This document shows, one piece after another, positions 32,219 to 39,353 of a stretch of DNA of 64,000 nt. Source of the DNA: Lysobacteraceae bacterium (GTDB lineage: Bacteria; Pseudomonadota; Gammaproteobacteria; Xanthomonadales; BQJN01); the NCBI GenBank assembly GCA_021604725.1, contig BQJN01000002.1, forward strand, positions 19,241-83,240, in the 5' to 3' direction. How positions within the stretch are numbered: the first letter of the stretch is position 1; each line of letters opens with the position of its first letter. The notes under the pieces are model-generated. The model did no database searches. It was not told where the DNA came from and saw only the letters and a list, made by a program, of their open reading frames with translations. The translations under genes and the position numbers were made by a program.

Positions 32219-33447
32219 GCGGCTACCGTTACCGCACGTCCATTGGCATCTTGCTTTTGGCGCTAATCTCAGCCTGTGCCTCTTTTGACCCGAAGCCGAT
32301 TGAGCCCGTTATCGATGCCTACATGACCCGGGCGCTGACCGAGCGTGACCATGGTGTTTCTGTCAACGCAGTGCCACTGACCGCCGAAGAATCTGCAGCA
32401 ATATTTGGCGTCAAACTGGCCAGGAAGAAGATTCAGCCGGTTTGGCTGGCTATCGACAACCAGGAGTCTTCGGACCTTTGGCTGCTGACCTTGATGCTGG
32501 ACCCCGACTACTACTCGACGCGTGAGGCGGCCTGGGCATTGGGTGCTCGTTACAAGCGCGAAATTGAAGACCACTTTGCGAGCTTCGACATGCCGATTCA
32601 TGTTCCGGCTGGGCAACGGGTCGAGGGTTTTGTGTTCACTACCCTAGATGAGCACGCCAAGGCGATCAGCGTGTCGCTGGTGGGCGATGACCATTTTCGG
32701 CAGGTCGATATGGTGTTTTCAATGCCGGCCAAGCGCGGGCTGGACTGGCAGAGTGTTGACTTCGATACGCTTTACCCGTCGCTCGCCGAGTTGGATGAGG
32801 TGCAACTAAAGGCCGAGCTGGAGGCTTTGCCGTGCTGTGTGCTCAGTACCGATGAACAGCGAAATGGCGACCCCGTCAATGTGGCCTTTGTTGGTTCGGC
32901 CGATCAGCTTTACTCGGTGCTGGTGCAGGCGGGCTGGGATGAGACCCATGCTCTGACTGCTGGAACCGCGGTGAAGACTGGCGTGAAAGGTGTATTCGGA
33001 GGTGAGTACAAACATTCGCCAATCAGCCCATTGTTGCTGTTCGGTCGCCCCCAGGATGCCGGTTTTCAAATGGCGCGGTCCAACATCCATCAACGCAATC
33101 ACATGCGAGTCTGGAAATCCCCCTGGAGTTATCAGGAAACGCCGGTCTGGATCGGTCAGATCAGCCGTGACATCGGGGTCAGGTTCACCAGATATTCACC
33201 ATTTCTCACCACCCACAAAATCGATCCGGACATCGATGAATCGAGATACGCATTGACGCAACAGATGCTGCTCAGTCAGCGCGTGCGAGCCTTTGGCTAT
33301 GTTGGTGGGTCTTTGCATGCGACACCGAATGAGCCGGGGTTCAATACGACCTTCGATCCGATGTGGTCTGATGGCCAGCGCGTGGTGTTCTTTCTGACAG
33401 ACAACCCAACCGCGCTGGATGAAATAGACTATATCGACTTTGATTAG
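32215..33447 (+). CDS. LssY-domain lipoprotein
   Basis: A 410-residue lipoprotein. The lipobox is ISAC with cysteine about residue 21 (LLLALISACAS). The region from about residue 220 (GDPVNVAFVGSADQLYSVLVQAGWDETHAL to RVRAFGYVGG) matches the LssY C-terminal domain (Pfam PF14067, recalled), found in type I secretion-associated and envelope proteins of unknown role. The N-terminal half has a beta-sandwich-like part (QPVWLAIDNQESSDLWLLTL). It overlaps the AsmA-like gene (ATGA), the last gene of the operon, and is followed by a strong palindrome at 33511-33536. Confidence 0.8.
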   Translation: MSGYRYRTSIGILLLALISACASFDPKPIEPVIDAYMTRALTERDHGVSVNAVPLTAEESAAIFGVKLARKKIQPVWLAIDNQESSDLWLLTLMLDPDYYSTREAAWALGARYKREIEDHFASFDMPIHVPAGQRVEGFVFTTLDEHAKAISVSLVGDDHFRQVDMVFSMPAKRGLDWQSVDFDTLYPSLAELDEVQLKAELEALPCCVLSTDEQRNGDPVNVAFVGSADQLYSVLVQAGWDETHALTAGTAVKTGVKGVFGGEYKHSPISPLLLFGRPQDAGFQMARSNIHQRNHMRVWKSPWSYQETPVWIGQISRDIGVRFTRYSPFLTTHKIDPDIDESRYALTQQMLLSQRVRAFGYVGGSLHATPNEPGFNTTFDPMWSDGQRVVFFLTDNPTALDEIDYIDFD

Positions 33448-33510: not shown

Positions 33511-33536
33511 TGGCCGGCTGACAAGTCAGCCGGCCA
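33511..33536. terminator. strong palindrome between convergent genes
   Basis: TGGCCGGCTGA-CAAG-TCAGCCGGCCA, an 11-bp perfect stem, lies between the convergent LssY and DUF4136 genes. No long T-tract follows on either strand (CTTAGCC on the plus strand), so it may be an intrinsic bidirectional terminator or a REP-type hairpin. Confidence 0.6.
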
Positions 33537-35552: not shown

Positions 35553-35825
35553 TCAGCTCTCGGGAGCGACGTAACCGGCAGGTTTCTCTGAGCCCTTGCC
35601 GAAGAAGAACTTCTCCATTTCCTGCTCGAGAAACTGGCGATGTCTGGGGTCAATCGGGGTCAATCGGTTTTCGTTGATCAGCATCACTTGATGCGCCAGC
35701 CAATCTGACCAGGCTTGTTTGGAGACCCGCTCAAAGATTCGCTTGCCCAGGTCACCAGGATAGGGTTGCCGGTCCAAGCCCTCGGCTTCTATGTCGAGTT
35801 TGATGCAGTGAACGGTGCGGGTCAT
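35553..35825 (-). CDS. yggX: YggX family Fe(II) trafficking / oxidative damage protection protein
   Basis: A 90-residue protein with the YggX pattern: [20 protein letters not shown] contains the conserved C-x-K, then [19 protein letters not shown] and [28 protein letters not shown]. YggX protects Fe-S enzymes from oxidative damage and is often linked to mutY, whose product holds a 4Fe-4S cluster. The ATG at 35825 overlaps the mutY stop by four bases, so the pair is co-translated. Length is normal. Confidence 0.93.
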
Positions 35826-36865
35826 GGTCTCTCCAATACGGTGCGAACAGGGGTAGGCAATCCGAGCTTTGTGGCTTGCTTTGGCGATAGCCAGCGACTC
35901 GAAGCATCCATTATAGCGCCGGCCTGGTAGCCCTTGACCAGCATCACTTCGGCGTGAAGGTGGTAGTGCGAAAAGCTGTGGCGGATAGTGGTCAACGCTT
36001 TGGGTGTGCTTTGGCAACCCAAGGCCATTGTTTGGATCAGCAGATCATCTTCCGAATCAAATTCGGGGAGGCACCACAGACCGCCCCACAGTCCACTTGC
36101 CGGTCGTTGCGTTAAAAGCAGGCGGCCGGCATTGTCTTCAAGCTTTAGCCACCAGCGCTTGCGCGTCGGCAACACCTTTTTGGGTCGGGGTGTGGGCAGT
36201 TGATCGTGCAATCCCTGCGCCAGGGCCTGGCATTCATGATGCACCGGACAGCGCTGGCAATCCGGTCGGCGGCGCGTACAAAGCGTTGCCCCAAGGTCCA
36301 TGATGGCCTGGGTATAGTCGGCGACGCGTTCGGTTGGCATGTGGGCCTGCGCCAGTTCCCATAGCCGGCGTTCAACGGCGGCCTTGCCTGGCCAGCCTTC
36401 AATACCATGCAGGCGGCACATCACGCGTTTTACGTTGCCATCAAGAATGGCGACAGGCAATCCAAATGCCTGTGCTGCGATGGCGTTGGCGGTGGAGCGA
36501 CCAATACCTGGCAGGTCTTGAAGCTGCTGTGGTGAAACAGGCAACTGGCCGTCGTGTTCTTGCATACACCGTTGCGCGGCTTTGTGCAGATTTCTGCCAC
36601 GAGCGTAGTAGCCCAGCCCGGACCAGTGCGCCAGAACATCGTCCAGCGTCGCTTCGGCTAAAGTCTGCAGCTTGGGAAACGCTTCCATGAAACGCTCAAA
36701 GTAGGGAATGACCGTGGCAGCCTGTGTTTGTTGCAGCATGATTTCCGACACCCAGATGCGGTAAGGCGTGGGCGATTTCTGCCACGGCAGACTGTGCCGT
36801 CCGTGCTGATCAAACCAGTCCAGCAAGTTTTTTACAAAAAATGAGTATTGCGCGGTTGTATACAA
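35822..36865 (-). CDS. mutY: A/G-specific adenine glycosylase MutY
   Basis: A 347-residue base-excision repair enzyme that removes adenine mispaired with 8-oxoguanine. Catalytic glutamate in [15 protein letters not shown], helix-hairpin-helix [12 protein letters not shown], catalytic aspartate in [14 protein letters not shown], and iron-sulfur cysteines in [17 protein letters not shown] are all present, followed by a NUDIX-like C-terminal domain that recognises 8-oxoguanine. The called start is TTG at 36865; no ATG occurs in the conserved N-terminus, so an alternative codon is likely used. It overlaps yggX (ATGA). Confidence 0.93.
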
Positions 36866-36869
36866 TGTT

Positions 36870-37045
36870 TGTCTGTGTTAACTTCTGCGCTCACTGCTGG
36901 TCACACACTGAACAACGGATGTAAAGCGACACGTAGTTGACCTGTTTCCGGGTTGGTCGAACCTGGATAGGTGGTGCCCCTCAATGGGCATCATCGTAAA
37001 CGGAGGGCGGGCCGCCCCCAAAAACCGCCCTCCGTTTTCCTTTTT
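36870..37045 (+). ncRNA. candidate structured RNA ending in a terminator
   Basis: A 170-base gene-free stretch between divergent mutY and the convergent end of ftsY. On the plus strand it has a long imperfect hairpin CCTGTTTCCGGGTT/AACCTGGATAGG (about 36939-36971), a second hairpin GGTGGTGCCC/GGGCATCATC (about 36970-36994, with wobble pairs) and a third, GC-rich hairpin AAACGGAGGGCGG/CCGCCCTCCGTTTT followed by CCTTTTTC. Three ordered hairpins with a terminator at the end are typical of a small RNA. It does not match tmRNA, 6S, 4.5S or RNase P by eye. No clear sigma-70 promoter was found. Confidence 0.4.
36998..37045 (+). terminator. rho-independent terminator
   Basis: AAACGGAGGGCGG pairs with CCGCCCTCCGTTTT around a 14-base loop; TTTTCCTTTTTC follows on the plus strand. 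It would end the candidate RNA above, and on the minus strand it could also serve the end of ftsY, though with a weaker T-run. Confidence 0.75.
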
Positions 37046-37071: not shown

Positions 37072-38070
37072 TCACGGCAACAAGGCGTCGACAAACTCCG
37101 CCGGATCGAAATCACGAAGGTCGTGAACCTGTTCACCGACGCCGATGTACCTCATCGGAATCCCGAATGTGTTGGCCAGTGCAAAAAGCACACCGCCCTT
37201 GGCCGTGCCGTCGAGCTTGGTCAAGGCCAGGCCACTGACCTTTACTGCTGCGGCGAACTCCCTGGTCTGTGACAACGCGTTCTGGCCGGTGCTGCCATCG
37301 AGTACCAATAACACTTCGTGCGGTGCCGTTTCATCCTGTTTAGCGACCACTCGGCTGACTTTTGTCAACTCATCCATCAGGCCACCACGGGTGTGCAGGC
37401 GGCCAGCGGTGTCGGCGATGACAACATCAATGTTTCGTGCTTTCGCTGCGGCGACAGTGTCGAAAATCACCGAGGCCGAATCTGCCCCTTCACCTTGCGA
37501 TATGACCGGGACGTCGACTCTGCGGCCCCATTCAGCCAACTGTTCGCAAGCCGCTGCCCGATAACTATCCCCGGCCGCCAGAAGCACCGATTTGCCCTCG
37601 GCCTTGTAGCGAGCGGCCAGTTTGCCAATGGTGGTGGTCTTGCCGGCACCGTTAACACCAACGACCAAGATGACAAATGGGCCGCCGCTGGCGGGCCGCT
37701 GGATGGTCAATGGCACGGCGACCTTGTTGGCCATGTCTGTCAGGTAATCTTTTAACGCGCCCATCAAGGCATCGAAGTCATCAAGCCGGCTGCGTTTGAT
37801 GCGCAGGCGCAGCTCATCAAGAATGGTGCCAGTCGTTTGCGCACCAACATCAGCGACCAGCAAGGCAGTTTCGAGCTCTTCGAGTACATCCTCATCGATG
37901 CGTCGTCGTACATTGACCATGCCTTTGAGGCTTTGAGCGATTTGCTGACGGGTCGCCCGCATCCGTTCGCGCAGAGGCTGCGGCGTTGGCTCTGGTGCAG
38001 TCTCGGCCGGTGCCGGTGCCTGTTCGACGGCAGCTTCGGTCTGCTTGTTTCGGTTTCGCTTAAAGATCAT
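37072..38070 (-). CDS. ftsY: signal recognition particle receptor FtsY
   Basis: A 332-residue SRP receptor GTPase that docks ribosome-nascent-chain complexes at the inner membrane. A charged, proline/alanine/glutamate-rich N-terminus (residues 1-35, EAAVEQAPAPAETAPEP) precedes the four-helix N domain and the GTPase domain with G1 GVNGAGKTTTIGKLA, DTAGRLH and TKLDGTAKGG, ending PAEFVDALLP. The A domain is much shorter than in E. coli, as in many relatives. Start ATG 38070 (MIFKRNRNKQ). It is divergent from rsmD, a common gammaproteobacterial arrangement. Confidence 0.96.
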   Translation of the reverse strand: MIFKRNRNKQTEAAVEQAPAPAETAPEPTPQPLRERMRATRQQIAQSLKGMVNVRRRIDEDVLEELETALLVADVGAQTTGTILDELRLRIKRSRLDDFDALMGALKDYLTDMANKVAVPLTIQRPASGGPFVILVVGVNGAGKTTTIGKLAARYKAEGKSVLLAAGDSYRAAACEQLAEWGRRVDVPVISQGEGADSASVIFDTVAAAKARNIDVVIADTAGRLHTRGGLMDELTKVSRVVAKQDETAPHEVLLVLDGSTGQNALSQTREFAAAVKVSGLALTKLDGTAKGGVLFALANTFGIPMRYIGVGEQVHDLRDFDPAEFVDALLP

Positions 38071-38110
38071 GTGAACGAGTACAATCTGTTTTTTGCTCCA
38101 ATATCTGCAA

Positions 38111-38695
38111 ATGCGGTCCAAAGGCAAACAAATCAACGCACGCATATCGGAAATCCGTGTCATCGCGGGTCAATACCGGGGCCGCAAGGTCAAGGTTCTG
38201 GACGCCGAAGGCTTGCGCCCCAGCGGTAGCCGTATTCGAGAGACGCTGTTCAATTGGCTGGCTCCCTACTTGCCCGGTGCTCGCGTGCTCGATTTGTACG
38301 CCGGCAGTGGCATTTTAGGTGTTGAGGCGGTATCCAGAGGCGCTGATCACACCGATCTGGTGGAGTTGTCAGCGCGGGCCGCGCGCACGATTCATGGCAC
38401 GCTAATCGACTTTGGTATCGACAACGCGCAAGTACATACCGCGTCGGCCGAACAATTTCTGTCGCGGGACCTCGGTCCCTGGGACATCGTGTTTATCGAC
38501 CCGCCTTTTGCGGAGGGTCCAAGCGCTTCGGTGCTTCGCCATTTGCAAAGCGCCAGCATGGTGACCGAAGGTGCATGGGTATATGTAGAAAGCCCAATCG
38601 AATCGCCATGGCCGATGCCGGAACGTTTTACAGAGCATCGCGGTAAGGTCGCTGGGGGCGTTGACTATCGGCTGTACCGCGTAAGTTGTAGTTAG
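38111..38695 (+). CDS. rsmD: 16S rRNA (guanine966-N2)-methyltransferase RsmD
   Basis: A 194-residue SAM-dependent methyltransferase that modifies G966 of 16S rRNA. It has RVIAGQYRGRKV near the N-terminus, the SAM-binding LDLYAGSGILGVEAVSRGA and the catalytic FIDPPFAEG. Size is typical. ATG at 38111. The divergent position to ftsY, with 40 bases between starts, is seen in many relatives. Confidence 0.94.
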   Translation: MRSKGKQINARISEIRVIAGQYRGRKVKVLDAEGLRPSGSRIRETLFNWLAPYLPGARVLDLYAGSGILGVEAVSRGADHTDLVELSARAARTIHGTLIDFGIDNAQVHTASAEQFLSRDLGPWDIVFIDPPFAEGPSASVLRHLQSASMVTEGAWVYVESPIESPWPMPERFTEHRGKVAGGVDYRLYRVSCS

Positions 38696-38710
38696 AGGTC
38701 GTCCACGATT

Positions 38711-39353
38711 TTCTTAAGGCGGGCGCTGCCCGCTCTCTGCGCGCCGCGCTTCAAAAGCAAAGACATGCACAATGAGAGAATGAGGGAAATGAGGGCTGCG
38801 GCTGCAGCCTTGGGGTTCGACAGGGGGAAGGGGGGGCGCATTTGCCTGGGGCGCAACGCGGTTCTGGAGCCGGCACCCGGAATCCATCTTGAAAAGCGGG
38901 CCGTGCTCGCCTCACTGATCTCCTTTTCTCATTGTGATCATTTTTTTGGGCGTGCGCTGCACGCTCTCTGCGCGCCGCGCTTCAAAAGCAAAGACATGCA
39001 CAATGAGAGAATGAGGGAAATGAGGGCTGCGGCTGCAGCCTTGGGGTTCGACAGGGGGAAGGGGGCGCGCATTGCCTTGGGGCCAACGCGGTTCTGGAGC
39101 CGGCACCCGGAAGCCATCTTGAAAAGCGAGCCGTGCTCGCCTCACTGATCTCCTTTTCTCATTGTGCTTATTTTCTTAAGGCGGGCGCTGCCCGCTCTCT
39201 GCGCGCCGCGCCTCAATAGCAAAGACGTGCACAATGAGAGAATGCGGGAAATGAGGGCTGCAGCTGCAGCCTGAGGGTTCGACAGGAGGAAGGAGGGCGC
39301 ATTGCCGGGCGCGTAACGCGGTTCTGGATCCCGGTCCCGGGTCCAGGCCCGGA
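38711..39353 (+). repeat. 231-bp tandem array of CACAATGAGAG-family units
   Basis: Three units start at 38768, 38999 and 39230, a spacing of exactly 231. Each has CACAATGAGAGAATG at its start, GAAATGAGGGCTGC, GGCTGCAGC-like palindromes, GGTTCGACAGGGGGAAGG and, in the first two, ends CTCCTTTTCTCATTGTG (38936 and 39166), an inverted copy of the start. The third ends early near 39353. Units are joined by TTAAGGCGGGCGCTGCCCGC or TGGGCGTGCGCTGCACGC hairpins and GCGCGCCGCGC. No gene is seen in 38696-39436. Confidence 0.8.

Follow-up and report, generated by a model that had tools for sequence, protein, structure and literature searches.

Does the 206-nt gap that separates mutY from ftsY hold an RNA gene of its own and, if it does, to which class would the RNA belong? 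A first-pass annotation of the window (the whole stretch of 64,000 nucleotides that was analysed) had placed a candidate small RNA with several hairpins in this gap and had hinted at the CsrA/RsmA-binding class. We examined the fold, the signals for transcription and the distribution of the candidate, and compared it with small RNAs of known function.

The mutY-ftsY locus

As shown in Table 1, both genes that flank the gap are located on the minus strand, and their identities were checked against NCBIfam models. The start region of mutY has no in-frame ATG nearby, and translation probably starts at the TTG at 36865, which shares bases with a -10-like TACAAT of the other strand. The closest plausible plus-strand gene ending upstream of the gap has its end at 33447 and is followed by a separate inverted repeat at 33511-33536; the plus-strand ORFs inside mutY were read as shadow frames. 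This repeat is a perfect one of 11 bp with a 4-nt loop, lies between convergent gene ends and is likely a bidirectional terminator. At 38710-39340, between rsmD and a gene weakly similar to amidases/aminopeptidases, a unit of about 231 nt also occurs as three direct repeats. Their 143-nt core has 94% and 84% identity to that of the first copy, and the repeats create an ORF that repeats MHNERMREMRAAAAALGFDRGKG.

Table 1. Features of the mutY-ftsY gap and its two flanking genes.
Feature	Position	Strand	Description
mutY	35822-36865	-	TTG start; TIGR01084, 359.5 bits (cut-off 286.5); not part of the RNA
-35-like hexamer TTGTAT	36856-36861	+	Part of the best sigma-70-type site in the plus-strand gap
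Alternative -10 TACAAT	36861-36866	+	Lacks a recognisable -35; shares bases with the TTG start codon of mutY; such -10s occur at 0.45 per kb
Extended -10-like TGTTAACTT	36876-36884	+	17 nt from TTGTAT; TAACTT core at 36879-36884 with extended TG
Long imperfect 5' hairpin (doubtful)	36877-36942 (about)	+	z -1.1 when folded alone; 5' arm upstream of the predicted start
Predicted small RNA	36891-37045	+	About 155 nt; with the alternative -10, start at about 36873 and length up to 173 nt
Stem-loop	36947-36967	+	8 bp, loop GGTCG, one G-U pair
Stem-loop	36970-36995	+	10 bp, loop CTCAAT, two G-U pairs
Intrinsic terminator	36998-37045	+	Perfect 13-bp stem (36998-37010/37025-37037), 14-nt loop GCCGCCCCCAAAAA, tail TTTTCCTTTTT
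C-rich terminator loop, proposed pairing site	37011-37024	+	All 14 bases predicted unpaired
ftsY	37072-38163	-	TIGR00064, 341.6 bits (cut-off 260.7); not part of the RNA

Fold of the gap and strand asymmetry

The plus strand of 36870-37045 folds at -70.2 kcal/mol, compared with -54.0 +/- 4.4 for dinucleotide shuffles (z -3.67), and its fold is better than that of all 200 shuffles. A z as low as this was reached by 0.3% of 341 stretches of the same length sampled from both strands of the window. For the minus strand of the gap the structure is unremarkable (z -1.15), and the predicted RNA alone (36891-37045) gives a z of -3.94. The stem-loops and the T-tailed terminator announced by the first-pass annotation are indeed located between mutY and ftsY, at the positions that it gave. 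Two stem-loops and the terminator are solid when folded alone (z -3.2 for 36946-36968, -4.8 for 36968-36996 and -4.2 for the terminator), while a long hairpin at the 5' end is doubtful. The structure signal sits in these two stem-loops and the terminator, not in the long 5' hairpin.

Both stem-loops are about half as stable on the minus strand because the G-U pairs of the plus strand become A-C mismatches there. The folding energy of 36947-36967 is -11.7 kcal/mol on the plus strand and -6.3 on the minus strand, and that of 36970-36995 is -16.8 and -9.2, respectively.

Terminator and putative promoter

An intrinsically terminated stand-alone small RNA calls for a Rho-independent terminator, and the plus strand of the gap has one. 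In a survey of both strands of the 64 kb, this hairpin had the lowest energy of all hairpins with T-rich tails, and its U tract is broken by CC. A mechanical terminator scan missed the site because it permits loops of up to 8 nt. The T tract lies on the plus strand and points away from both ftsY and mutY. Since the terminator faces away from both neighbours and the nearest upstream plus-strand gene ends far back at 33447, a plus-strand transcript that uses it would have to start inside the gap or close beside it, and we infer that the gap is transcribed on this strand.

For the start of such a transcript, the gap was searched with a standard sigma-70 matrix, with the frequency of matches calibrated across the window. 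Matches as good as TTGTAT-17-TGTTAACTT occur at 0.2 per kb, about once per 5 kb and strand, so that the chance of one in a 200-nt gap is about 4% per strand. A stricter scan of the gap found no promoter. A start near 36891 is weakly predicted from the promoter match; it would retain both stem-loops and the terminator and drop the 5' arm of the doubtful hairpin.

Test of the CsrA/RsmA class

The first-pass annotation had described GGA-containing loops and a resemblance to CsrA/RsmA-binding RNAs. The genome encodes one CsrA, and the gap has two ANGGA strings and several stem-loops, as an RNA that sequesters CsrA/RsmA in the manner of CsrB, RsmY or RsmZ might have. The GGA motif itself, however, is at chance level, with three in the 176 nt of 36870-37045 against a shuffle mean of 2.3 (P = 0.42), and none is presented in a hairpin loop. 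In the predicted fold, stems take up the GGAs at 36965 and 37002; of the GGA at 36917 the two G's are base-paired (unpaired probability 0.01-0.02) and the A alone is free. The RsmZ of P. fluorescens, by contrast, contains eight GGA, and the motif is found in the loop of each of its four stem-loops (PMC4005645). In the covariance search of Rfam that the first-pass annotation had proposed, nothing reached gathering score. Even at E <= 10 no Csr/Rsm family appeared, the sole match being STnc390 at E 3, which was taken as chance. A CsrA-sequestering role for the gap RNA is thus highly improbable, and of the first-pass proposal the class falls away while the candidate small RNA stays, with its strand-specific fold, its G-U asymmetry, its outward-facing terminator and a possible promoter. 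Given the CsrA gene, the genome may hold Csr/Rsm-type RNAs elsewhere.

Distribution of the candidate

The element is single copy, with no further copies found in its own genome. Within the order, the best relatives of MutY have 50-58% identity, and of 29 relative loci that were inspected, 26 have ftsY upstream of mutY, next to it in some and at a distance of about 1.2 kb in others. Where the two genes are direct neighbours the gap is mostly short, and the hairpins of the candidate were absent from all ftsY-mutY gaps inspected in the order. Two distant relatives in the order (L005 and L007) have this gap filled by unrelated long palindromic repeats, which suggests that the gap tolerates insertions. 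When contigs were searched with MutY, the named gammaproteobacteria had at most 54% identity, and in none of them was ftsY detected beside mutY, so that they are uninformative for the gap.

A covariance model (R1) built from the single sequence of the gap RNA gave no credible match in 300 genomes of the order. Two weak matches (22.3 and 20.7 bits) were both set aside as chance: the one in L115 lacks the T tract of a terminator and lies over ORFs beside a universal-stress-type gene, and the one in L116 consists mainly of terminator similarity. The class-level covariance search of 369 genomes returned nothing apart from the window itself. No match to the candidate was found in DNA searches of plasmids and phages or in an exact-pattern scan of viral contigs, and a literature search for a small RNA mentioning both ftsY and mutY found none. 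These searches covered genomes of the order and class outside the candidate's own family, and the RNA is either restricted to an unsampled lineage or diverged past detection.

Interpretation of the gap

We put at about even the chance that a small RNA is encoded in the gap by a stand-alone gene of the plus strand, the likeliest product being a base-pairing regulator that acts through its exposed loops. Without any RNA gene, the inverted repeat could be the terminator of ftsY, perhaps a bidirectional one, and the other hairpins could be incidental folds of the mutY leader. The 13-bp stem is located 35 nt beyond the ftsY stop codon, where a terminator is expected, its hairpin is equally stable on the minus strand (-25.9 kcal/mol), and strong stems occur at other gene ends in the window, such as the one at 33511-33536 between convergent genes. 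The T tract, however, is on the plus strand; on the minus strand the stem is followed by ACGATG and there are only three U, all confined to the stem. The two further stem-loops, moreover, fold well on the plus strand only, and the minus-strand fold of the gap is ordinary. We regard a bare ftsY terminator as rather unlikely.

If the plus strand is transcribed, the product could also act in cis as an antisense RNA to the ftsY-mutY intergenic region, pairing fully with read-through or leader RNA and so controlling the translation of mutY or the extent of the ftsY transcript. Such an RNA would show complementarity to most of the sequence preceding the start codon of mutY, and ftsY and mutY are often neighbours in the order, in some cases with a very short gap between them. 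Yet any RNA from this gap automatically has that complementarity, and an antisense RNA would need neither the pair of tight stem-loops nor the long C-rich loop. We consider an antisense role in cis improbable.

A stand-alone small RNA, as we picture it, would begin near 36891, a short way outside the start codon of mutY, and would stop at the intrinsic terminator at about 37045. Its 5' part would have little structure and would be followed by the two tight stem-loops and by the terminator hairpin with its 14-nt C-rich loop. In the predicted fold the exposed parts are this terminator loop, the CUCAAU loop and the GGUCG loop. Of the apical loops, one carries a C-run, CCGCCCCC, which is fully unpaired in the prediction, and the others are not C-rich. 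The loop GCCGCCCCCAAAAA foremost, and perhaps CUCAAU too, would contact G-rich ribosome-binding regions of mRNAs. Sites complementary to the loop are present in the genome, with 26 exact occurrences of TGGGGGCG-N3-13-ATG, a bare count without a proper significance control. By analogy with the regulators compared below, the C-rich terminator loop might pair with ribosome-binding sites, a proposal that we offer as a doubtful one. The fullest form of the idea, an undescribed regulatory RNA restricted to its family, encoded antisense between ftsY and mutY and using the large, C-rich loop of its terminator to pair with mRNAs, is likewise speculative and rather improbable.

For the candidate as a whole, a lineage-restricted orphan small RNA of ordinary architecture, located on the strand opposite to both genes, is a plausible description. 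If the candidate is transcribed, a poorly sampled bacterial lineage would have a further orphan small RNA, and the general understanding of small RNAs would be unchanged. The candidate would also be a case in which terminator orientation and G-U asymmetry indicate an RNA gene without conservation data.

Comparison with known small RNAs

Like CsrB, RsmX, RsmY and RsmZ, the candidate would be a small RNA with several stem-loops and a terminator; it differs from them in the repeated, loop-presented GGA, which it lacks, and in having no Rfam match. The 6S RNA (RF00013) is similar to the candidate in length, but it is one long interrupted hairpin, whereas the candidate is a chain of short ones. The genome's own copy of 6S RNA is located elsewhere (C165, 77 bits), and this identity was rejected.

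LhrC of Listeria pairs with a Shine-Dalgarno sequence through its loop A and its terminator loop (PMC4132741). A C-rich terminator loop as a pairing site is shared with the candidate, in which this use is a proposal only (PMC4132741). LhrC is present in five copies and has UCCC at three sites, whereas the candidate is single copy and its terminator loop has no UCCC, and there is no homology between the two (PMC4132741).

In sX13 of Xanthomonas, loops with four or five C's act against G-rich translation start regions (PMC3771888). This RNA is 115 nt long and is located downstream of polA, in contrast to the ftsY-mutY position of the candidate, and it has C-runs in all three of its loops, where the candidate has one in the terminator loop only; the two show no homology (PMC3771888). 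The likeness consists of a compact form, successive stable stem-loops (three in sX13) and a C-run in a loop (PMC3771888). Loop 3 of sX13 carries CCCCC, and so does the terminator loop of the candidate (PMC3771888).
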